From assembly GCF_030268085.1 (NCBI RefSeq), contig NZ_BSDE01000001.1, positions 806,001 to 870,000 of the forward strand: a DNA stretch of 64,000 nucleotides, given 5' to 3'. The notes under the pieces are model-generated. The model searched no databases and was not told the DNA's origin. It was given only the letters and a program-made list of their open reading frames with translations. This DNA is from Geothrix limicola. GTDB lineage: Bacteria; Acidobacteriota; Holophagae; Holophagales; Holophagaceae. The position numbers and the translations under genes are program-made. Numbering within the stretch: the stretch's first letter is position 1; every line of letters begins with the position of its first letter. Below, piece after piece: positions 3,834-61,611 of the stretch.

Positions 3834-6800
3834 TTTGGGCGCCAGGGCCGTGGCCACGGCCACCGGCACGTAAGGCGTGAAGGCCTTGAGGGTGCCGGCC
3901 CAATCCGCCAGCAGGGCCGCCGCGGTGGCGCTGCCGGTTTCTTCGGCATGGGCTTCCAGCAGGCGGCGGAACAGGGCTTCCTCCTCCTGGCGCCAGTGGA
4001 TGGCCGAGAGGTAATCGCCGTTCACGCGGGTGGCGCAATCCCGCCTCAGGAAGAGGCAGCCCCCCGTCATGCCCGCGCCCGCGTTGGTGAGCACCTGGCC
4101 GAGGATGGCCACGGCGCCGCGCGTCATGTATTCGCAGGCATGGTGTCCGGCGCCTTCGACGACGGCGCTGGCGCCGCTGTTGCGCACCGCGAAACGGTCG
4201 CCGGCGAGGCCGCGGGCGAAGAAGCGTCCACCTGTGGCGCCGTAGAGGGCTCCGTTGCCGAGGATGGCGTTCTCTTCGGGTGTGAAGGTGGCGGCGGGGT
4301 TGGGTCGCAGCACCAGGGTTCCGCCGGACATGGACTTGGCCACCGAATCATTGGCCTCGCCCAGCAGCTTCACGTGGAGGCCTTCGGTGAGGAAGGCGCC
4401 GAAACCCTGGCCGGCGCTGCCGGTGAAGGTGAGCCGCAGCTCGCCGGGCACGGCGGCATCGGCGCCTTCGCGGCGCCGTTCGCGGATGCGCTGGGCGATC
4501 TCGCCCGAAAGCGTGGCCAGCACACCCCGGTCCTCCGTATCGATGGGGAAGGCCAGCTCCTGGTGGCCGCCGGCTTCCAGGAAGGGGCGCGCGGCCTCGA
4601 CGATGCGCTGGTTGAGCAGACCCACACCCTCCGGCTGGAAGCTGGCGGATTCGCCGGCGACCGGCTCGGCCGGGGCTTCGAGGAAGGAGGAGAGGTCGAG
4701 CTTCCGGTCCCGCACGAAGGCCGCATGATCCGGCGAAATGGTCAGCAGGTCGGTGCGGTCCATCACCTCGGAGAGCGCGGACACGCCGAGGTCCGCCAGG
4801 TGCCGGCGCACGTCTTCGGCGATGTGGGTCAGCATGCGCTCGATGGCTTCGGGGCTACCCGTGTAGCGCGCCTTGAACTTCGGGTCGTGGGTGGCGATGC
4901 CGGCGGGGCAGGTGTTCTTTTCGCAGATGCGGGCCATGACGCAGCCCTCGGCCACCAGCAGCAGCTTGCCGAACTCGAAACCCTCGGCGCCCAGGATGGC
5001 CGCCGTGACGATGTCCTTGCCCGTCAGCAGGCCGCCGTCCACGCGAAGCTCCACCTGGTCGCGCAGGCGGTTCTCCCGCAGGGTCTGGTGGGCCTCCACG
5101 AGTCCGATCTCCCAGGGCAGGCCCGCGTGCTTCATCGATCCCAGCGTGGCGGCGCCGGTGCCGCCGTCGCCCCCGGCGATGTAGAGGATGTCCGCGCCGG
5201 CCTTGGCGACACCCACGGCGATGGTGCCGATGCCCGTGCCCGAGACGAGCTTCACGCTGATCTTGGCGGTGGGGTGCACCTGCTTCAGCTCGTAGATGAG
5301 TTCTTTCAGATCCTCGATGCTGTAGATGTCGTGCAGGGGCGGCGGCGAGATGAGGTCCACGCCGGGCAGGGAGAAGCGGGCTCTGGCGATGGTGTCGTCC
5401 ACCTTCACCTTCATGAGCTGGCCGCCCTCGCCGGGCTTGGCGCCCTGGGCCACCTTGATCTGGATCTCCTGGCCCGAGACCAGGTATTCGGCCGTGACGC
5501 CGAATCGCGCCGAGGCCACCTGCTTGGTGCTGGCCGTCAGGCCCTCGGTCCAGTAGTAGGGGTTCTCGCCGCCCTCGCCGCTGTTGCTGCGGCCACCCAG
5601 GGCCTCCATGGCGCGGATGAGGTCTCGCTGGCTCTCGGCGCTGACGGCGCCGAAGGACATGGCGCCCGCGCCGAAGCGCTTGAAGATCGCGCTCCTGGGT
5701 TCCACTTCGGTCATGGGACGCGGTGTCTCCGCTTCCCGGAAGGCCAGCAGGTGCCTGGGGTTGATAGGTTCATCCACCTTCAGGGAGGCGAGGTACTCGC
5801 GGTAGACCTCGCGGGCCTCCGGCAGATCCGGATCGAGACCCACGAGGCGGTGCACGATGCGCGAGCGCGCCGAGGTCATGCCGTGGCGCTCGCCTTCGCC
5901 GGGCTTGGTGGATTCCCGGAACTGGTGCGTGTGGAGGAGCTTGTCCTGGAAGCCGGACTGGGCCGCGTAGCCGGTCTTCAGCAGCACGTCGCCCGCCAGT
6001 TCCTCGTAGCCGATGCCGCCCAGGGGGCTCGCGTGGCCGGGGAAGAAGGTCTCCATGAGCTCGGGGCCCAGGCCCACGGCCGTGAAGAGTTTGGCGCTCA
6101 TGTAGCTCTGCACGACGGAGATGCCGCATTTCGCCATGATCTTCAGCAACCCGGATTCCAGGGCCGCCATGAGGTTCTGCTCGCGCTCGTCCGCCGAGAG
6201 CTTGGCGAAGGAGGGATGCTCGTCTCGGCGCGCGATGTCGAGGGCCAGGTAGGGGCAGACCGCCGAGGCGCCGAAACTGATGAGGGCCGCGAGATGGTGC
6301 GAGGTGCGGGCCTCGGCCGTGTGCATGACGATGGAAGCGTTGAGGCGCAGGCCGGATTCGTTGAGGGTATGCACCACGGCGCGTAGCGCGATGAGCCCCG
6401 GGATGGGCGGCTGCTCGACGCTGGCATCCTGGTCGCTGAGGATGATCACGGTGGTGCCGCTCTCCACGGCCTGGCGCACATCCGCCGCCAGCTTGTCGAT
6501 GGCCGCGTGGAAGCCGCTGATGCCGTCCGTGCGCTTGAAGAGGATGGGGAAGGTGCGCGGGATGATCTGGGATTCCGAGGGCCGCATGGACTGCATGCGC
6601 GCCAGGAAGCGCATCTGGCCCAGGTCGAGGATGGGCCGCGGCAGCTCCAACGCCTCGTTGAGCGGCACCAGATCCTTGGGGAAGAAGATGTTCGGCGCCC
6701 GGCCCAGGAACACGCGCAGGTCGGTGATGTTGCCTTCGCGGATGTAGTCCAGGGGCGGGTTCGTGACCTGGGCGAAGTGCTGGTAGAAGTAGTCGAAGAA

Positions 6801-8219
6801 GGGCCTGGGCTCGGAGGAGAAGACGTTGGGCCGGGCCGTGTCGCCCATGGAGCCGATGGCCTCTTTTCCCGTGGCGATCATGGGGTAGATCATCTTCTCC
6901 AGCTCCTCGCGGGAGCAGGTGAATAGGGTCTTGCGGAAGACGCTGACGGGGCCTTCCGGCGCGACTTCCTCCGGGATCGAGCCGATGGGCGTGGTGCGGG
7001 CGTCGAAGGCCGCATCGCGGTTCTCGCGCGACAGGCTGGCGTCACGGAAGTGGACGCGACCCGTGGGCAGGTCCACCTTCACGCCTGTGCCCGCGTAGAC
7101 GATGCCCTTGCGGCGGATGGCGGCCTCGTCGACAGGGAAGGCGCCGGCCTCGGAGGCGAGGATGAAGCGATCGTCCGTCATGGTCCAGCGGGCGGGGCGG
7201 AAGCCGTTGCGGTCCAGGCGCGCGCCGACGGTGTTGCCGTCGGAGAACATCACGATGGCGGGCCCGTCCCAGGGCTCCATGGCCCGGCTCCAGAAGGTGT
7301 AGAAGTCCGTCTGGCCCTCGGCGGGGGGCATCATGATGGCGAGGATGTCCTCCATGTGCGGGATGCTGCTGCGGTTCAGCAGGGCCTCGGCGATCTCGTT
7401 GAAGCTGCCCGAATCGCTGATGGAGCCGTGGGTGACGAGCTGGTCGGTCTTCAGGCCGATGGACAGCTCGCGGGAGATGGCGCGAGAGCGGTTGCCCGCG
7501 ATGGTGTTGATCTCGCCGTTGTGGGCGATGAGGCGGAAGGGCTGGGCCTTGTCCCAGCTCGTGCGCGTGTTGGTGCTGAAGCGGCGGTGGATCAGCGCGA
7601 AGCGCGTGGCGTAGCGGGGATCCTGCAGGTCCAGGTAGAAGCGGTGCAGGTCGGCGGCGCGGGTGAGGGCCTTGTAGACGATGGTGCGGGGCGAGAGCGA
7701 GGCGAAGAAGAATTCTCCGCGGATGCCCTGTTCGGTCTGCTTGGTGCGCAGCACCTGCTTGGCGTTGTAGAGCAGCTTGTCGAAGGAGGCGTCCGTGCGG
7801 CAGTGGGCGGGCCGCTTCAGGATGACCTGGCGCAGGGAGGGCAAGGTCTTGCGGGCATCCTCGCCCAGCACCGAGGCATCGACGGGCACCTCGCGGTTCG
7901 CCAGGATCTCGAGATCGAAGAAGCTGAAGGTGGTGGCGAAGGTGTCCAGCGCGCGCTGGAGGCGCTCCGGATCCTGGGGCATGAACAGGTTCGCCACGGC
8001 GATCTCGCCGGGCTTGTAGCCCAGCAGATCGAAGGGGATGTCGGTCATGATGCCCGCGCCGTCGCTCGAGATCTGGTCGGCCGCGCAGCCGCCGCGGTGC
8101 TCCACGCATCTCAGGGCATGAAGGGCGTCCTTCAGGATCTGGTGACAGGCCTCACCATTGCGGCTGGCGATAAAGCCAACCCCGCACGCGTCGTGCTCGT
8201 TCCGGGATGCATGTGGCAT
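3813..8219 (-). CDS. gltB: Glutamate synthase, large (alpha) subunit
   Basis: At 1468 residues this is the full GltB length. It moves the amide nitrogen of glutamine to 2-oxoglutarate to make two glutamates. The class II glutaminase nucleophile is the Cys of HDACGVGF at residue 12, just after a short propeptide. A central FMN-binding synthase domain contains GGRSNSGEGGE and the IAGGDGGTGAA loop. The 3Fe-4S cysteines are in CVMARICEKNTCPAG near residues 1090-1110, and a C-terminal Gly-rich GXGXG helix domain follows. I moved the start from the longest frame (8279) to 8219 because it places the nucleophile correctly and has AAGGGAAGAGAG upstream. No gltD small subunit is adjacent, so electrons must come from a partner encoded elsewhere or from ferredoxin. 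Confidence 0.97.
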   Translation of the reverse strand: MPHASRNEHDACGVGFIASRNGEACHQILKDALHALRCVEHRGGCAADQISSDGAGIMTDIPFDLLGYKPGEIAVANLFMPQDPERLQRALDTFATTFSFFDLEILANREVPVDASVLGEDARKTLPSLRQVILKRPAHCRTDASFDKLLYNAKQVLRTKQTEQGIRGEFFFASLSPRTIVYKALTRAADLHRFYLDLQDPRYATRFALIHRRFSTNTRTSWDKAQPFRLIAHNGEINTIAGNRSRAISRELSIGLKTDQLVTHGSISDSGSFNEIAEALLNRSSIPHMEDILAIMMPPAEGQTDFYTFWSRAMEPWDGPAIVMFSDGNTVGARLDRNGFRPARWTMTDDRFILASEAGAFPVDEAAIRRKGIVYAGTGVKVDLPTGRVHFRDASLSRENRDAAFDARTTPIGSIPEEVAPEGPVSVFRKTLFTCSREELEKMIYPMIATGKEAIGSMGDTARPNVFSSEPRPFFDYFYQHFAQVTNPPLDYIREGNITDLRVFLGRAPNIFFPKDLVPLNEALELPRPILDLGQMRFLARMQSMRPSESQIIPRTFPILFKRTDGISGFHAAIDKLAADVRQAVESGTTVIILSDQDASVEQPPIPGLIALRAVVHTLNESGLRLNASIVMHTAEARTSHHLAALISFGASAVCPYLALDIARRDEHPSFAKLSADEREQNLMAALESGLLKIMAKCGISVVQSYMSAKLFTAVGLGPELMETFFPGHASPLGGIGYEELAGDVLLKTGYAAQSGFQDKLLHTHQFRESTKPGEGERHGMTSARSRIVHRLVGLDPDLPEAREVYREYLASLKVDEPINPRHLLAFREAETPRPMTEVEPRSAIFKRFGAGAMSFGAVSAESQRDLIRAMEALGGRSNSGEGGENPYYWTEGLTASTKQVASARFGVTAEYLVSGQEIQIKVAQGAKPGEGGQLMKVKVDDTIARARFSLPGVDLISPPPLHDIYSIEDLKELIYELKQVHPTAKISVKLVSGTGIGTIAVGVAKAGADILYIAGGDGGTGAATLGSMKHAGLPWEIGLVEAHQTLRENRLRDQVELRVDGGLLTGKDIVTAAILGAEGFEFGKLLLVAEGCVMARICEKNTCPAGIATHDPKFKARYTGSPEAIERMLTHIAEDVRRHLADLGVSALSEVMDRTDLLTISPDHAAFVRDRKLDLSSFLEAPAEPVAGESASFQPEGVGLLNQRIVEAARPFLEAGGHQELAFPIDTEDRGVLATLSGEIAQRIRERRREGADAAVPGELRLTFTGSAGQGFGAFLTEGLHVKLLGEANDSVAKSMSGGTLVLRPNPAATFTPEENAILGNGALYGATGGRFFARGLAGDRFAVRNSGASAVVEGAGHHACEYMTRGAVAILGQVLTNAGAGMTGGCLFLRRDCATRVNGDYLSAIHWRQEEEALFRRLLEAHAEETGSATAAALLADWAGTLKAFTPYVPVAVATALAPKLAYPVE

Positions 8220-55421: not shown

Positions 55422-56240
55422 TCAACTGACGCGATTATGAAGTTTTAACTCAACTGCCGCAGCTGGTTCCAGGACGCGGAACGTGAAGGACTCGGTGAAG
55501 TACAGCTCGACCTCGCGTGCATCGTGGATCTTGTAGCCAATGGCGAGATCCTGACCCACCGTCATTTCGAAATCCCCGCCCCGTCGCGAAAGCACGGCAC
55601 CACCTTCAAGCACCGGACTCCAGTGGATGCCACCTGTGACCAGGGACTTGATGCGTTCGCGCAGGGGGTAGGCATTTGGTTCTCCGGCCATCAACCACTG
55701 GTAGGGATCGGTCCCCAGCACCAAGGCGAAGGGGCCACCGATCTCTGCCTTCTGGATGCAGAGCAGGGCCGATTCAACCGATTCGGTGAGACTGCCCCGA
55801 TCGGAACTGAGCACCACCGGAGGATGGCTGGAGCCCGCAAGCATGCCTTGGATGCCGGCAGCGCTGAACCCCCAATAGAGGGCCGTTTCTTCGAAAAGGG
55901 CCACCTTTCGCGCGGCAGCTTTGAGGGCATCCAGATTCGGGTTCTTCGCGCCTCGGGCGATGTCATCCAATTCCCAGATTCCCAGGTTGAAAGGCACCCG
56001 GACCTCCATGAGGGGAAGCACCTTGTGGAGGCCCCAGGCCACATCATCGGCGTCGCTCCCAGGGCCGATATCCAGGCGGCCGAGGCTCACCGCGGCAAAG
56101 GGCAAACCATGAGGGCCCGAAAAATCCACCAGCTTCCGCCCGGAAAGATTGCCCTTCAGAATGCGCGAACTCTGCAGTTCGATTTCCTTCCAAGCCTCAT
56201 CCACGATGGGCGCCACGTGGCGCCGGAGCATGTCAGTCAT
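55422..56240 (-). CDS. enc: Encapsulin shell protein (family 1)
   Basis: A 272-residue HK97-fold shell protein. The N-terminal RRHVAPIVDEAWKEIE, followed by GRKLVDFSGPHGLPFAAVSLG, and the later RVPFNLGIWELDDIARG and RGGDFEMTVGQDLAIGY closely follow the Thermotoga maritima encapsulin chain (linocin M18-like family). It should assemble a T=1 or T=3 icosahedral cage that encloses cargo carrying a C-terminal docking peptide. The EncFtn gene is 22 bases upstream with that peptide. GGGGA is 8 bases before the ATG. A terminator follows. Identification rests on these blocks and the neighbour. Confidence 0.95.
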   Translation of the reverse strand: MTDMLRRHVAPIVDEAWKEIELQSSRILKGNLSGRKLVDFSGPHGLPFAAVSLGRLDIGPGSDADDVAWGLHKVLPLMEVRVPFNLGIWELDDIARGAKNPNLDALKAAARKVALFEETALYWGFSAAGIQGMLAGSSHPPVVLSSDRGSLTESVESALLCIQKAEIGGPFALVLGTDPYQWLMAGEPNAYPLRERIKSLVTGGIHWSPVLEGGAVLSRRGGDFEMTVGQDLAIGYKIHDAREVELYFTESFTFRVLEPAAAVELKLHNRVS

Positions 56241-56262
56241 ATCTGTTTCCCCTGTAGGTGGC

Positions 56263-56601
56263 TCATGTGAGACGCCCCAATCCCAGCCCGTTTCCCGGCG
56301 CTGGGGGAGGCTCCAATCCCTTGGCCAGGGCGGTCAATTCACCGGAGGTGAAGAGGAACTTCCTCAGCTGGACGTCAAACTCGGGCCGGTTTCGTCGCAA
56401 CCATTCAAGGAGCATGGCCGCATGTTCCATCTCGTCATTGCGGTTATGGATCAGGATGGCCTTGAGCGGCTCGTCAGCGGTCGCATCCATCCGTTGGTGG
56501 TAGTAGTCGATGGCTTCCAGTTCTTCCTGCAAACTGGCCAGCGCCCTATGGAAACCGAGCGCCTCAGGCGAAAGGCCCGCTTCCAGGAGTCCGCTGCTCA
56601 T
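56263..56601 (-). CDS. Encapsulated ferritin-like protein (EncFtn) cargo
   Basis: A 112-residue two-helix ferritin-like protein that forms decamers with the di-iron site at the subunit interface. Ferroxidase ligands by comparison with Rhodospirillum EncFtn are about Glu27, Glu57 and His60 (ELEAIDYYHQRMDA, NDEMEHAAMLLEWLRR), with Tyr33 at the Trp position. The last eight residues GLGLGRLT are a typical encapsulin docking tail after a Pro/Gly-rich linker. It oxidises ferrous iron for mineral storage inside the shell. Its ATG overlaps the stop of the SOD gene (ATGA), so the two are coupled. Confidence 0.93.
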   Translation of the reverse strand: MSSGLLEAGLSPEALGFHRALASLQEELEAIDYYHQRMDATADEPLKAILIHNRNDEMEHAAMLLEWLRRNRPEFDVQLRKFLFTSGELTALAKGLEPPPAPGNGLGLGRLT

Positions 56602-57209
56602 CGCTGCCTCTTGGCCTGGTCGTGACGTGTCGCCGCACTGAATCGTCTGGACACCTCACTCCACTTGACGTTGTCGAAGAAGGCATTGATGTAGTCGGGC
56701 CGTTTGATGCCGAAATCCACCATGAAGGCATGCTCCCAGCTGTCCAGCACCAGGAGCAGATCCTGGTCGATGGGCATCCCCAGGTGGTGCTCGGCTACGA
56801 AGTAGGTGTGGAGGCGGCCGTCCCGTCGGTTGCGAGTGAGCAGGGCCCACCCCGGCCCGCCCAGGGCGGTGGCTTTGAGGTCCGCCAGAATCTTGTCCCT
56901 GCCACCCTGCGCGTCCATGGCCTTTTGGAAGTCCGGAGCGGTGGTGGCGTCGGCACCCAGGTTTTCGAAGTAGAGCTCGTGAAGGAAGGAGCCGTTGAAG
57001 GCGACCGCCTCCCGCCGCTTCAATTCGCTGTATTCATTGAAGGAGTAGTTGGGCTTGGTGTTGTTCTCCACCGTCAGCTTCTCCTCAATTTCATTGAGCT
57101 TGGCCAGGTAGCCCTTGTAGAGGGTGAAATGCAGTTCCAGCTGGCTATCGCTGAACCCTTTCAGGGCCCCACCCTTCAGGTGCTCGTAATTCATCGCTTC
57201 GTAGGTCAT
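56598..57209 (-). CDS. sod: Fe/Mn-type superoxide dismutase
   Basis: A 203-residue SOD with the family's metal ligands: His in LELHFTLYKGYLAKLN, His in FLHELYFENL, and Asp plus His in LDSWEHAF. The GxGW equivalent GGPGWALL is present. Some usual residues differ: the second His of the first helix pair is Phe, and the Gln/His gate position aligns to His in VAEHHLG, as seen in some cambialistic and archaeal SODs. It carries no encapsulin docking tail at its C-terminus (SRRFSAATRHDQAKRQR). TGGAGG is 6 bases before the ATG. It is the first gene of SOD-EncFtn-encapsulin. Confidence 0.88.
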   Translation of the reverse strand: MTYEAMNYEHLKGGALKGFSDSQLELHFTLYKGYLAKLNEIEEKLTVENNTKPNYSFNEYSELKRREAVAFNGSFLHELYFENLGADATTAPDFQKAMDAQGGRDKILADLKATALGGPGWALLTRNRRDGRLHTYFVAEHHLGMPIDQDLLLVLDSWEHAFMVDFGIKRPDYINAFFDNVKWSEVSRRFSAATRHDQAKRQR

Positions 57210-57612: not shown

Positions 57613-58773
57613 ATGGCGCGTGTCCCGATCCATCTACATGATTTCCAGATCCAGCCCGCGAGGTACCACTCGGATCAGGCGACCATCGTGGATTGGATCG
57701 CCGCGGCCCACGCCCAGGCGGAGATCACCCTTCAGGCACCACCGACGGATGAGGCCCGTGAAACCCTCGTCCGGAAATTCCGGAAGTTGGTTCGGCGGTT
57801 TGGCTGCAGCACGGATCGGATCGCCTTCCGGAATTCCTCACTGGAGGACTTCACCCATACGGATTGGGATCGGATGAGGATCTTCCAGCTGAACAAGTTT
57901 CCCTCGGGAAGGCCTTGCGGGGAGCGGAGCCGGTTTTTCAGTGAGATCAGCGGCGAAGCGTTCGAACAGTTCTACGCCCATGAGAGCGAGCCGCCTCCGG
58001 TCATCATCCATGTCACGTGCACGGGGTACGTGTCCCCCAGCGGCGCCCAACGGCTGGTGGCCAGCCGGGACTGGGGCCGGTCCACGGAAGTGTTTCACGC
58101 GTATCACATGGGTTGCTATGCCTCGATGCCAGCCATTCGCATGGCAGCGGGCTTTGTGGAAAGGGGTAAGGCCCGTGTGGACATCGTCCACACCGAGTTG
58201 TGCACCTTGCACATGGATCCCAGCCAGCACCTGCCCGAGCAACTGGTGGTGCAGACCCTGTTCGCGGATGGTTTGATTCGGTATTCGGTGTCTCGTGCCA
58301 GGGCCGGGAAACCCCTTTCGAATGGCCTGGAGCTGATCACCACCCGTGAGGAAATCGTGCCTGGCACCGGCGATGCCATGACCTGGATGGTCTCGGATTT
58401 CGGGATGCTGATGACGCTCTCCCGGAAGGTGCCCGATCACATTCGCGCAGGTTTGGGGGCGTTCCTCGACAGGTTGGCCGCTTCAGCGGAGCTGACGTCG
58501 GGTCAGCTGATCGAAGAGGCGATCTTCGCCATACATCCCGGCGGCCCGCGAATCATCGATGAGATCGCGGAACACCTTGGCCTGCGGCCCGAACAGGTGA
58601 GCGCCAGCAACGCCATTCTCAGCCAGTTCGGCAACATGTCATCCGCCACGTTGCCCCATGTGTGGCAGGCCGTGCTGGCGGATCCAGCCGTGAAACCCGG
58701 CACCCTCATCGTCTCCCTGGCCTTTGGGCCCGGACTGACCATCGCGGGTGCCATCCTCCGGAAAACGCCGTGA
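57613..58773 (+). CDS. Type III polyketide synthase (chalcone synthase-like)
   Basis: A 386-residue condensing enzyme. The catalytic triad is visible: Cys in YHMGCYASMPA, His in FAIHPGGPRI and Asn in FGNMSSATLPHVW. Bacterial type III PKSs extend an acyl-CoA with malonyl-CoA to resorcinols, pyrones or quinone precursors. The coupled methyltransferase suggests a methylated phenolic lipid. ATG 57613 is chosen, with GAGG about 10 bases upstream; a TTG at 57598 is an alternative. Its TGA overlaps the GTG of the next gene. Confidence 0.92.
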   Translation: MARVPIHLHDFQIQPARYHSDQATIVDWIAAAHAQAEITLQAPPTDEARETLVRKFRKLVRRFGCSTDRIAFRNSSLEDFTHTDWDRMRIFQLNKFPSGRPCGERSRFFSEISGEAFEQFYAHESEPPPVIIHVTCTGYVSPSGAQRLVASRDWGRSTEVFHAYHMGCYASMPAIRMAAGFVERGKARVDIVHTELCTLHMDPSQHLPEQLVVQTLFADGLIRYSVSRARAGKPLSNGLELITTREEIVPGTGDAMTWMVSDFGMLMTLSRKVPDHIRAGLGAFLDRLAASAELTSGQLIEEAIFAIHPGGPRIIDEIAEHLGLRPEQVSASNAILSQFGNMSSATLPHVWQAVLADPAVKPGTLIVSLAFGPGLTIAGAILRKTP

Positions 58774-60020
58774 ACGGTACCTTGTTCTGGCTCCTGCCCT
58801 TCGGATTCCAGGGCCTGGCCATGGGGTTTGACACGTTCATCTACCACCGCCGCCGGGAGGTGCCCCGCTGGGAAGGGCTGGGACACGTGCTGGACAGCCT
58901 GGTCTTCCTGGCTTGCTTGGTGCTCCCGGTGCTGGTCGCTCCCACACCTTCGAACATCCGGCTCTTCAGTGGCATGGCCGTGTGCTCATGTCTTCTGATC
59001 ACGAAGGACGAATTCATCCACCAGCGCCTCTGCTCGGGAGGGGAGCATTGGCTTCATGCCGTGTTGTTCATCCTCCATCCCATCGTGCTGTTAGCCACAG
59101 CCATGCTTTGGATCGACCTTGGATCCGCCGCCCTTTCTCAGACCTTCCCTCGACCCCTGGCCGCATGGCTGCTCCAGTTGCAGGCGGCCCTCGTCTTCGG
59201 ATTTCTGGTGTACCAGATTGCCGAGTGGTTCTGGCGGGCTCGGTGGGAAGGGAAGGGTCCGGAGATCAACAACAGCATTTACGAGGATCTGGGCGACCGT
59301 TGGTACACGACCACCGACGACCCTGTGGCGCTGCTTAGGGCCGAGTCGCGACTCCGGACTTCCTGGGTGCAGGCGGACCTTCACGCAGCCTTTGGCGAAG
59401 AAGCCTTGGCCATTCTCGATGTGGCCTGTGGAGCTGGATTTCTGAGCAACCCGCTGGCACAGGCCGGGCATGAGGTCACCGGCATCGACCTCTCGCTTAG
59501 CAGCCTCGAGGTGGCGAAACGGCACGATCACACCCGATCCGTGACGTACCTCCCCATGGATGCCCGGTGCTTGTCCTTTCCCGACGCGCGGTTCGATGTG
59601 GTCTGCATGATGGATTTCCTCGAACATCTTCCGGAAAAGGAAGAGGTGCTGCGAGAGGCCTCCAGGGTCCTCAAGCCGGGTGGGTGGTTCTTCTTCCACA
59701 CCTTCAATCGGACGCTCCTCAGTTGGCTCATCGGCATCAAGGGCGTCGAGTGGTTTGTGAAGAACACACCCGCGCACATGCATGTGTACCGGCTTTTCCT
59801 AAAGCCTTCCGAATTGAGGGATCTCTGCGCCCGCCAACACCTGGTCGTGGAAGAGGTTCGGGGGGTTCGTCCGCGGATCTTCAGCTGGGCTTTCTGGAAG
59901 CTGCTTCTCACCGGAAGGGTGAGCGATCAGTTCCAGTTCGTGTTCACGCATTCACAAAGCATCGGGTATTGCGGGCACGCCCGAAAATTGACCGCCTTAC
60001 TTGCCAGGCCTGTGCCATGA
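58770..60020 (+). CDS. Fusion of His-rich membrane domain and UbiG-like methyltransferase
   Basis: A 416-residue protein. Residues 1-155 contain four to five transmembrane helices with clustered acids and histidines (DEFIH at 80-84, E92-H93, H96, H103; also D21, H26, H39), which looks like a metal-binding membrane enzyme. Residues from about 185 form a SAM methyltransferase of the UbiG type: ILDVACGAGFLSNPL is motif I, GIDLSLSSL motif II, MDFLEHLP the acidic motif, and FFHTFNRTLLSWLIGIKG the UbiG-specific block. It probably O-methylates the phenolic product of the PKS. GTG start overlapping the PKS stop gives strict coupling. The membrane domain is not recognised. Confidence 0.82.
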   Translation: MNGTLFWLLPFGFQGLAMGFDTFIYHRRREVPRWEGLGHVLDSLVFLACLVLPVLVAPTPSNIRLFSGMAVCSCLLITKDEFIHQRLCSGGEHWLHAVLFILHPIVLLATAMLWIDLGSAALSQTFPRPLAAWLLQLQAALVFGFLVYQIAEWFWRARWEGKGPEINNSIYEDLGDRWYTTTDDPVALLRAESRLRTSWVQADLHAAFGEEALAILDVACGAGFLSNPLAQAGHEVTGIDLSLSSLEVAKRHDHTRSVTYLPMDARCLSFPDARFDVVCMMDFLEHLPEKEEVLREASRVLKPGGWFFFHTFNRTLLSWLIGIKGVEWFVKNTPAHMHVYRLFLKPSELRDLCARQHLVVEEVRGVRPRIFSWAFWKLLLTGRVSDQFQFVFTHSQSIGYCGHARKLTALLARPVP

Positions 60021-60108: not shown

Positions 60109-60930
60109 ATGAGCAGCTTCACCACCAAAGATGGAACGGAACTCTATTTCAAGGATTGGGGGTCGGGACGACCCGTCGTCTTCAGCCACGGGTGGCCCCT
60201 CACCGCGGATGCCTGGGAAGGCCAGATGCTCTTCCTTGCGGCCAAGGGATTCCGGTGCATCGCCCACGACCGACGCGGACATGGACGCTCAGCCCAGCCC
60301 TCGATCGGCAACGACATGGACACCTATGCCGACGACCTGGCAGAACTCATCGACCGGCTCGACCTCACGAACCTGTCGTTGGTGGGCCATTCGACAGGCG
60401 CGGGCGAGATCGCTCGGTTCATCGGACGCCATGGCACCAAGCGGGTCGCGAAGGTGGTCCTCGTAAGCGGCGTGCAGCCGCTGATGCTGAAGACAGACGA
60501 CCATCCCGATGGCCTGCCCATGGAGGTCTTTGATCAGATCCGAGCCGGCGTGCGGGCCGACCGCTCCCAGTTCTTCAAGGACCTGACGACCGCGTTCTAC
60601 GGCGCCAATCGACCCGGCGTCAAGATCAGCCAGGGGGTTCGGGATGCCTTCTGGTTCCAGGGCATCCAGGGCGGCCTCCTGAACGAGCTCGAGTGCATCA
60701 AAGCGTTCTCTGAAACGGATTTCACGGAGGACCTTAAAAAAATGGATGTACCCACCCTCATCATCCAGGGCGACGACGATCAGATCGTTCCGGTCCGTTC
60801 CTCGGCCTATGCCACGGCCCAATTGATCCCGAAGGCAACCCTGAAGCTGTACCCAGGGGGGTCCCATGGCCTTGCCGACACTCACAAGGACGAGCTGAAT
60901 GCCGACCTCCTGGCCTTCCTGAGTACCTGA
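60109..60930 (+). CDS. Alpha/beta hydrolase (arylesterase or non-haem chloroperoxidase-like)
   Basis: A 273-residue hydrolase close to the perhydrolase/non-haem haloperoxidase group. [13 protein letters not shown] is the oxyanion block, HDRRGHGRS the turn, VGHSTGAGE the nucleophile elbow with Ser, QGDDDQIVP the acid and GGSHGLAD the His. These enzymes hydrolyse esters and can form peracids from H2O2 in vitro. It follows the PKS/methyltransferase unit by 88 bases and precedes wrbA. GGAGGG lies 12 bases before the ATG. Confidence 0.9.
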
Positions 60931-61008: not shown

Positions 61009-61611
61009 ATGACCAAGATCCTGATTCTCTACTACAGCATGTATGGCCACATCGAAAGCCTGGCCAAGGCGGTGGCGGAGGGCGCCCGGGGAGTCGCAAA
61101 CACCGAGGTCACCCTCAAGCGCGTGCCCGAATTGATGTCTGAAGAGGCGGCCCGCAAAGCCGGCGCCAAGGTCGATCAGGCCGCTCCCCTTGCGAATGTC
61201 GATGAACTCTCGGGGTACGACGCCATCATCTTCGGCACCCCGACGCGGTTCGGGAACATGTGCGCCCAGATGCGGAACTTCCTCGATCAGACGGGCCGGC
61301 TGTGGCAGGAGGGCGGCCTGATCGGCAAGGTGGGCAGCGTGTTTACCAGCACTGCCACGCAGCACGGCGGGCAGGAAACCACCATCACGTCCTTCCATAC
61401 CACCCTGCTGCATCACGGCATGGTCATCGTGGGCGTCCCCTATTCCTGCGTACAGATCGGAAACATGGGTGAAATCAGCGGTGGGTCGCCCTACGGCGCC
61501 GGTACGCTGGCGGGTGGCGATGGCCACCGCCAACCCTCAGAGAACGAGTTGACGATCGCGCGATTCCAGGGCGCGCATGTGGCGGACGTGGCCAGGAAGC
61601 TTTCAGCCTGA
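61009..61611 (+). CDS. wrbA: NAD(P)H:quinone oxidoreductase WrbA
   Basis: A 200-residue flavodoxin-fold enzyme that reduces quinones by two electrons and limits superoxide formation. The FMN phosphate loop is [13 protein letters not shown], and [35 protein letters not shown] and [13 protein letters not shown] are WrbA signatures. The cofactor acts as a tetramer. It is 78 bases downstream of the hydrolase. A role next to SOD and phenolic-lipid genes fits quinone and oxygen stress. Confidence 0.95.

Follow-up and report, generated by a model that had tools for sequence, protein, structure and literature searches.

A polyketide synthase gene overlaps a gene for a membrane domain-methyltransferase fusion

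The window analysed here is a stretch of 64,000 nucleotides (contig C1:806001-870000) from the genome of Geothrix limicola, a soil and sediment bacterium of the Holophagaceae, the family of Geothrix-like Acidobacteriota; the genome measures 4.23 Mb and is 97% complete. Two overlapping genes on the forward strand encode a type III polyketide synthase (PKS) and a fusion protein in which a membrane domain, named Nd here (fusion residues 1 to ~166), precedes a methyltransferase of the UbiG family. In window coordinates, the locus contains the following features:

57613-58773 (+): type III PKS, 386 amino acids, ATG start; Pfam Chal_sti_synt_C 3.6e-20; best PDB matches 3vs9 and 3vs8 (5.5e-66 and 3.6e-64); triad Cys168-His308-Asn341; Trp258 at the place of ArsB Trp281/ArsC Gly284
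58770-58773 (+): GTGA overlap, from the sequence, of the PKS stop TGA (58771-58773) with the fusion GTG (58770-58772)
58770-60020 (+): fusion protein, 416 amino acids, GTG start; Nd membrane domain plus UbiG-family methyltransferase
58770-59264 (+): Nd, five-helix membrane domain, fusion residues 1-165; no Pfam or NCBIfam match; supported by a structure model and a 20-sequence alignment
59280-60020 (+): UbiG-family S-adenosylmethionine-dependent methyltransferase domain, from residue 171; TIGR01983 3.4e-39, 134.5 bits against a cut-off of 102.95; Pfam Methyltransf_11 3.1e-26

A first reading of the window, made from the sequence alone, had described a PKS stop codon lying over the GTG of a 416-residue protein that joins a membrane stretch to a UbiG-type methyltransferase. 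Both descriptions are correct: the overlap is the GTGA at 58770-58773, and the protein consists of a five-helix domain of ~160 residues followed by the TIGR01983 match at residues 171-367. The start position of the PKS (ATG, 57613) is the same in its homologues, and a start/stop overlap of the GTGA or ATGA type is common to eight of the nine relatives compared, the exception being locus L009. No promoter or terminator scored above chance at the locus.

Nd, the synthase and the methyltransferase form a conserved unit

Genome searches covered the window's phylum, with a family sample of 77 genomes and a phylum sample of 396. Nd was found in 10 of the 77 family genomes (E<=7.1e-47; marginal matches in G051 and G033, with E of 0.004 and 0.007, were excluded from all counts) and at 17 places in 16 of the 396 phylum genomes, six of these 16 being family members. 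Because the Nd frame runs into the methyltransferase in nine of the ten family genomes that have Nd (in G055 it runs to the contig end, within the methyltransferase), the fusion is no chance read-through. The fusion-bearing relatives carry the record names Geothrix, Holophagaceae and 'Acidobacteria bacterium', and in an eleventh family genome (L018) a contig edge leaves 200 residues of the fusion, from its C-terminal end. In G068 (L009) the two parts are separate genes, the TGA of Nd overlapping the GTG of the methyltransferase.

Outside the family, a search for the membrane domain by itself, which the sequence-only reading had called for, located Nd at 11 places in 10 genomes, free-standing in every case. 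A separate gene for a methyltransferase of the window's kind (51-57% identical in the nine measured) follows directly in another frame at 10 of these places, and the PKS gene lies just before Nd at seven. No PKS adjoins the Nd of G136, G312 or G390, or the second Nd of G342 (L054); in G390 and G312 the PKS is on a different contig from Nd. Thus, PKS, membrane domain and methyltransferase are a conserved unit. The fusion itself is real but is not the key to the system; it is specific to one Holophagaceae branch, and the two halves are split elsewhere. In a methyltransferase tree of 18 rows, a branch supported at 98/98 separates the eight fused rows from the others, and the split L009 is next to them, as one fusion event would give, the Nd tree being too poorly resolved to confirm this. 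No match to one distant Nd used as query was found in plasmid and phage collections, and viral contigs gave no match; for the full fusion, the ten plasmid matches listed were over the methyltransferase part.

The association of Nd with one clade of PKS is close. When the window PKS was used to search the phylum sample, 128 of 396 genomes gave some match at E<=1e-10, 15 did so at E<=6.8e-72, and the next match stood at 9.1e-38; the 15 genomes are 15 of the 16 that hold Nd (Fisher's test 3e-26, ignoring the relatedness of the genomes). Within the family, the PKS clade is present in 11 of 77 genomes (E<=8e-87), namely the ten Nd genomes and G057, and G029 gives a distant PKS match (2.4e-17). At the G057 locus (L121; G057:C185, ~6640-7726) the PKS is broken into two frames near residue 177 and stops at residue 314, a stretch weakly resembling Nd 102-153 (E 0.016) begins 3 bases later, and no methyltransferase was found; this is apparently a decayed copy of the locus.

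The synthase resembles alkylresorcinol and alkylpyrone synthases

The window PKS belongs to the type III (chalcone synthase) superfamily, scoring 72.9 bits against a cut-off of 27 for Pfam Chal_sti_synt_C, and C168, H308 and N341 are present in it and in every one of the 33 aligned loci that extend over these positions. Its closest solved relatives are 3vs9 (226 bits) and 3vs8 (220 bits), aligned over residues 79-384 of 386. The aligned parts of these two structures differ at one residue, Trp versus Gly, and the window PKS has Trp258 at this position. The entry 3VS8 is wild-type ArsC (Gly284), which makes pyrones, 3VS9 is its G284W variant, which makes more resorcinol, and ArsB has Trp281 (PMC6274091); in Streptomyces the same Trp residue has been used to predict a resorcinol product (PMC9927152).

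Genes that could supply the starter were seen in two genomes of one genus. In G255, genes for an acyl carrier protein (ACP) and a ketosynthase lie beside the PKS; in G312, a ketosynthase gene lies beside the PKS and an ACP gene beside Nd:

L106, 454-1934: ACP and ketosynthase genes beside a type III PKS
L052, 1532-1798: ACP gene beside Nd

ArsB and ArsC take acyl-ACP starters (PMC6274091) and, by analogy, these neighbours suggest a private supply of acyl-ACP starters.

The membrane domain keeps a set of acidic and histidine residues

An alignment of 20 Nd sequences was assembled (the window, nine from the family and ten others, including the lone Nd of L054), which are 32-74% identical to the window sequence. 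Twenty-one columns are invariant: F11, D21, H26, R29, E35, G38, H39, D42, C49, S73, K79, D80, H84, C88, E92, W94, H96, H103, P104, W114 and Q149. Ten of these are Asp, Glu or His (five His, three Asp and two Glu), residues that form the majority at just 15 of the 166 Nd positions, an excess that the hypergeometric test puts at 2e-7; among small, hydrophobic or hydroxylated positions, 5 of 114 are invariant. E22 and E81 are each kept in 95% of the sequences. By helix, the conserved polar residues of the window protein, as placed by the 20-sequence alignment, are:

58830-58847 (+): helix 1, D21 to H26
58872-58895 (+): helix 2, E35, H39 and D42
59007-59021 (+): helix 3, D80, E81 (95%) and H84, the motif DEFIH being D80-H84
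59043-59078 (+): helix 4, E92, H96 and H103; H93 is not conserved

The sequence-only reading had proposed a metal centre on the pattern DEFIH, E92-H93, H96 and H103 and had made its proposal depend on conservation of the histidines. The pattern is present as described and is extended by D21, H26, E35, H39 and D42; five His residues and E92 are invariant across the 20 sequences, but H93 is variable, being kept in 65% of them. This invariant set of histidines and acids has the appearance of a metal-binding active site. An internal duplication (helices 1-2 versus 3-4, both with DE..H...E...H) was considered and rejected, as its profile alignment score of 12.99 was reached by 14 of 150 column shuffles.

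Together with the invariant Ser73 and Lys79, the Asp/Glu/His set would also suit hydrolytic chemistry. Nd could then be a membrane metal hydrolase or decarboxylase, with a zinc-type Asp/His/Glu site, that acts on the PKS product or on the acyl chain, for example by decarboxylating an alkylresorcylic acid or by releasing the chain from acyl-ACP, with the UbiG-type domain methylating afterwards. The ACP genes beside Nd or PKS in two genomes fit such a role; however, ArsB decarboxylates its own product (PMC6274091), a type III PKS needs no acyl release, and related operons have an oxidoreductase rather than a hydrolase in the place of Nd. We consider this alternative improbable.

Structure prediction, proposed with the original reading, yielded five long helices. 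AlphaFold2 with the 20-row Nd alignment placed them at residues 3-28, 33-55, 60-87, 90-122 and 130-159 with a mean pLDDT (predicted local distance difference test) of 89.4 and a pTM (predicted template modelling score) of 0.85, and a model of the full fusion from 28 rows (pLDDT 91.8, pTM 0.77) left the helices unchanged. The distance from the conserved Asp, Glu and His residues to the helix ends bordering loops 1-2 and 3-4 is 2-13 residues. Lys and Arg residues per Nd sequence number 3.85 in loop 1-2, 0.35 in loop 2-3, 1.1 in loop 3-4 (where Asp and Glu number 1.3), 1.35 in loop 4-5 and 2.35 in the C-terminal stretch. By the positive-inside rule, these charges would put the Asp/Glu/His cluster in the cytoplasmic half of the bundle, the Nd C-terminus and the methyltransferase inside the cell, and the N-terminus outside.

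Membership of a known family was considered for Nd and dropped, the matches in Pfam, NCBIfam and the PDB being absent or weak. Residues 1-166 of the window protein had no match at E<=1 in Pfam or NCBIfam, including the Pfam families of membrane fatty acid desaturases and hydroxylases, and a profile of the Nd family matched no PDB chain sequence at E<=1. When the 20 sequences were compared with known families, the best of the weak matches were PgaD (0.0021, one member) and NF038216 (0.0035, four members); among ten Nd sequences scanned singly, no family match exceeded a curated cut-off. The metal-site proposal had also been set against a match of Nd to a known non-metal family, and these searches returned none.

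A proposed pathway to a methylated, hydroxylated alkylresorcinol

Operons with a resorcinol-forming PKS are reported to carry a methyltransferase and a flavin adenine dinucleotide (FAD) oxidoreductase and to yield hierridins or polyketide quinones (PMC10896814, PMC9927152, PMC8086630). The sequence-only reading had supposed that the window pair works with no separate hydroxylase, and the genome agrees: no SrsC/PkqC-like flavin hydroxylase or FAD oxidoreductase was recognised among the genes adjoining the locus, and FAD_binding_3 matches across the genome were weak, the best (7.0e-10), the only one of any strength, being an aminoacetone oxidase family flavoprotein. Because no FAD gene was recognised nearby and Nd fills the oxidoreductase's third place in the operon, we take Nd as the candidate ring hydroxylase. 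By analogy with the known operons, it would replace their flavin oxidoreductase.

We therefore propose, tentatively, that the two genes are an operon for a methylated, hydroxylated alkylresorcinol, a membrane lipid resembling a polyketide quinone, with Nd as a metal-dependent ring hydroxylase. In the pathway that we infer, the PKS would extend a fatty acyl starter and cyclise it to a 5-alkylresorcinol, which would enter the inner membrane. The Asp/Glu/His cluster in the cytoplasmic half of Nd would bind a redox metal, most likely non-heme iron and perhaps two ions, and would hydroxylate the resorcinol ring with O2. The tethered UbiG-family domain would then O-methylate the new catechol-type hydroxyl, and oxidation would give a methoxy-alkylquinone. 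In favour of this pathway are the joint occurrence of Nd and the PKS clade, the adjacency or fusion of Nd to the methyltransferase, the invariant Asp/Glu/His columns, the ArsB-type Trp258, the ACP, ketosynthase and YceI genes beside related loci, and the WrbA gene downstream.

Several observations weigh against this proposal. Trp occupies position 258 in all 33 rows covering it, including all 15 outgroup PKS loci (L072-L086); Trp258 excludes the ArsC state but, shared as it is with the outgroup enzymes, only weakly indicates a resorcinol product. At Nd position 22 (58833-58835) the window has Thr in place of the Glu found in 19 of 20 sequences, which could alter metal binding in this strain. 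Histidine boxes of the HxxHH type are a mark of membrane fatty acid desaturases and hydroxylases, and no such box is found among the conserved columns of the 20 Nd sequences. Of 197 Foldseek matches of the Nd model to the PDB, none reached E<=0.001, and the best VIA match was bestrophin (Z 10.2, root-mean-square deviation 4.0, 141 residues aligned), a Z range common for helical bundles. Because both comparisons return only common helical arrangements, the hydroxylase step is without support from a known oxygenase fold. Geothrix is usually described as anaerobic, a poor fit with an O2-dependent step. In the proposal's favour, the genome has three COX1-family genes; they suggest a host capable of respiration with oxygen or nitric oxide and make use of O2 plausible. 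As to distribution, one contig of G255 ends in a PKS fragment of 142 residues, probably of this clade's type (E 3.3e-30) and beside ACP and ketosynthase genes, and no Nd was found in that genome, a possible exception to the co-occurrence. Conversely, G136, which is 99% complete and has Nd with its methyltransferase, gave no type III PKS match to the window PKS at E<=1e-5, and the Nd of L054 has neither a methyltransferase nor a PKS adjoining it.

These last cases would be expected if Nd and the methyltransferase worked independently as a pair that tailors several phenolic lipids and the PKS link were one use among others; the PKS on another contig in G390 and G312 and the pairing of Nd with a YceI-family gene at L054 point the same way. 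The phylum sample argues the contrary, since a PKS of just this clade is present in 15 of its 16 genomes with Nd, and we judge the tailoring-pair reading the least probable of those considered.

The missing resemblance to an oxygenase fold favours a further alternative, in which Nd is a non-catalytic membrane anchor and lipid-binding platform that keeps the methyltransferase at the membrane and presents the resorcinol head group, its polar cluster binding substrate or another protein; there would be no metal and no oxidation, and the product would be a methylated alkylresorcinol. A tether for a soluble methyltransferase whose substrate is a membrane lipid would be expected to take the form of such a fusion, and in G. 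maris the extra methyltransferase and oxidoreductase genes are reported to have given a single methylation only (PMC10896814). However, tethering does not require five His, three Asp and two Glu to stay unchanged among sequences that are 32-74% identical to the window's, and the free-standing Nd proteins at all 11 non-family places are not fusion tethers. We regard an anchor as unlikely.

The hydroxylase proposal can be taken further, to a version that we think somewhat unlikely as a whole. Nd would then be the first representative of a new class of metal oxygenases embedded in the membrane, with a carboxylate-and-histidine site drawn from helices 1-4, that hydroxylate alkylresorcinols; PKS-Nd-UbiG units would let Acidobacteriota make their own polyketide quinones, and one Holophagaceae branch would have merged hydroxylase and methyltransferase into a bifunctional enzyme. 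The electron shuttle reported for Geothrix was considered as the product and dropped, as Nd is present in only 10 of 77 family genomes and the lipid would be hydrophobic.

Neighbouring genes

Genes near the window locus, and those beside related loci, include:

60109-60930: alpha/beta hydrolase, downstream of the fusion
61009-61611 (+): WrbA-type NAD(P)H:quinone oxidoreductase; TIGR01755 312.6 bits against a cut-off of 132.5
L104, 8412-9197 (-): YceI-family (lipid-binding) gene beside ketosynthase-PKS genes
L054, 8062-8706 (+): YceI-family gene overlapping the end of the lone Nd

In four of the nine family relatives with a downstream flank (L014, L015, L018 and L020), a WrbA relative follows the locus within about 2.5 kb; none is near it in L013, L016/L024, L017, L021 and L022. 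At E<=1e-60, WrbA occurs in 10 of the 77 family genomes, 6 of the 11 that bear the locus and 4 of the 66 others (Fisher's test 3e-4). In this count G027 was taken as locus-bearing, its WrbA position matching L018; the WrbA of G069 is on another contig. WrbA is a possible partner of the PKS-fusion pair. Two YceI genes are also present in the window genome, on a different contig, and YceI proteins may carry the pathway product.

Divergent from the PKS, on the reverse strand at 55422-57209, genes for an Fe/Mn superoxide dismutase, an encapsulin-associated ferritin-like protein and a family 1 encapsulin shell stand in a row, the first two overlapping by 4 bases. One relative (L016/L024) likewise has this trio upstream of its PKS.

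Significance and comparison with known systems

Nd is an unnamed membrane family with active site-like conservation, tied to one PKS clade and one methyltransferase, and the PKS-fusion pair could reveal a new enzyme class as well as a new lipid. Actinobacteria are reported to use polyketide quinones as respiratory carriers (PMC9927152); the presence of these quinones in Acidobacteriota, if true, would widen the known respiratory lipids. In the open literature, outside which most subscription papers lie, we found no description of an Nd membrane family or of such an operon in Acidobacteriota. The operon type is already known, and the membrane family within it is undescribed.

Among the known systems, the srs and pkq operons of Streptomyces and Mycobacterium resemble the window locus in combining three activities in a small operon and in having a PKS with Trp at the place of ArsB residue 281 (PMC9927152). 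Their PKS and methyltransferase genes are contiguous, as in the window, whereas the window locus has no recognised FAD oxidoreductase and has instead a membrane domain fused to a UbiG-family methyltransferase. The first srs/pkq product is reported to be a long-chain alkyl resorcinol (PMC9927152), the kind of product that the genes at the window locus would predict. The cyanobacterial hidABC genes and a planctomycete methyltransferase-oxidoreductase-PKS operon are likewise compact PKS/methyltransferase operons with an alkylresorcinol synthase (PMC10896814, PMC8086630); in the window, by contrast, the PKS comes first and the membrane domain stands in place of an oxidoreductase gene.

The methyltransferase meets its nearest named relative in UbiG. 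UbiG annotation is expected because the domain exceeds the NCBI equivalog cut-off of TIGR01983, even though it lies in a PKS locus; its partners, by fusion or as neighbouring genes, are a membrane protein and a PKS. The automatic label of ubiquinone UbiG is therefore probably misleading, and the gene is an example of one that would be taken for UbiG although a role in ubiquinone synthesis is improbable. For the synthase, ArsB and ArsC of Azotobacter vinelandii are the closest known system, with the ArsC structures 3vs8 and 3vs9 (220-226 bits) as the closest solved relatives, and their acyl-ACP starters fit the ACP and ketosynthase neighbours seen here. The window PKS differs from ArsC in carrying the Trp of ArsB and of the ArsC G284W variant, and the ars genes sit with a type I fatty acid synthase (ArsA).

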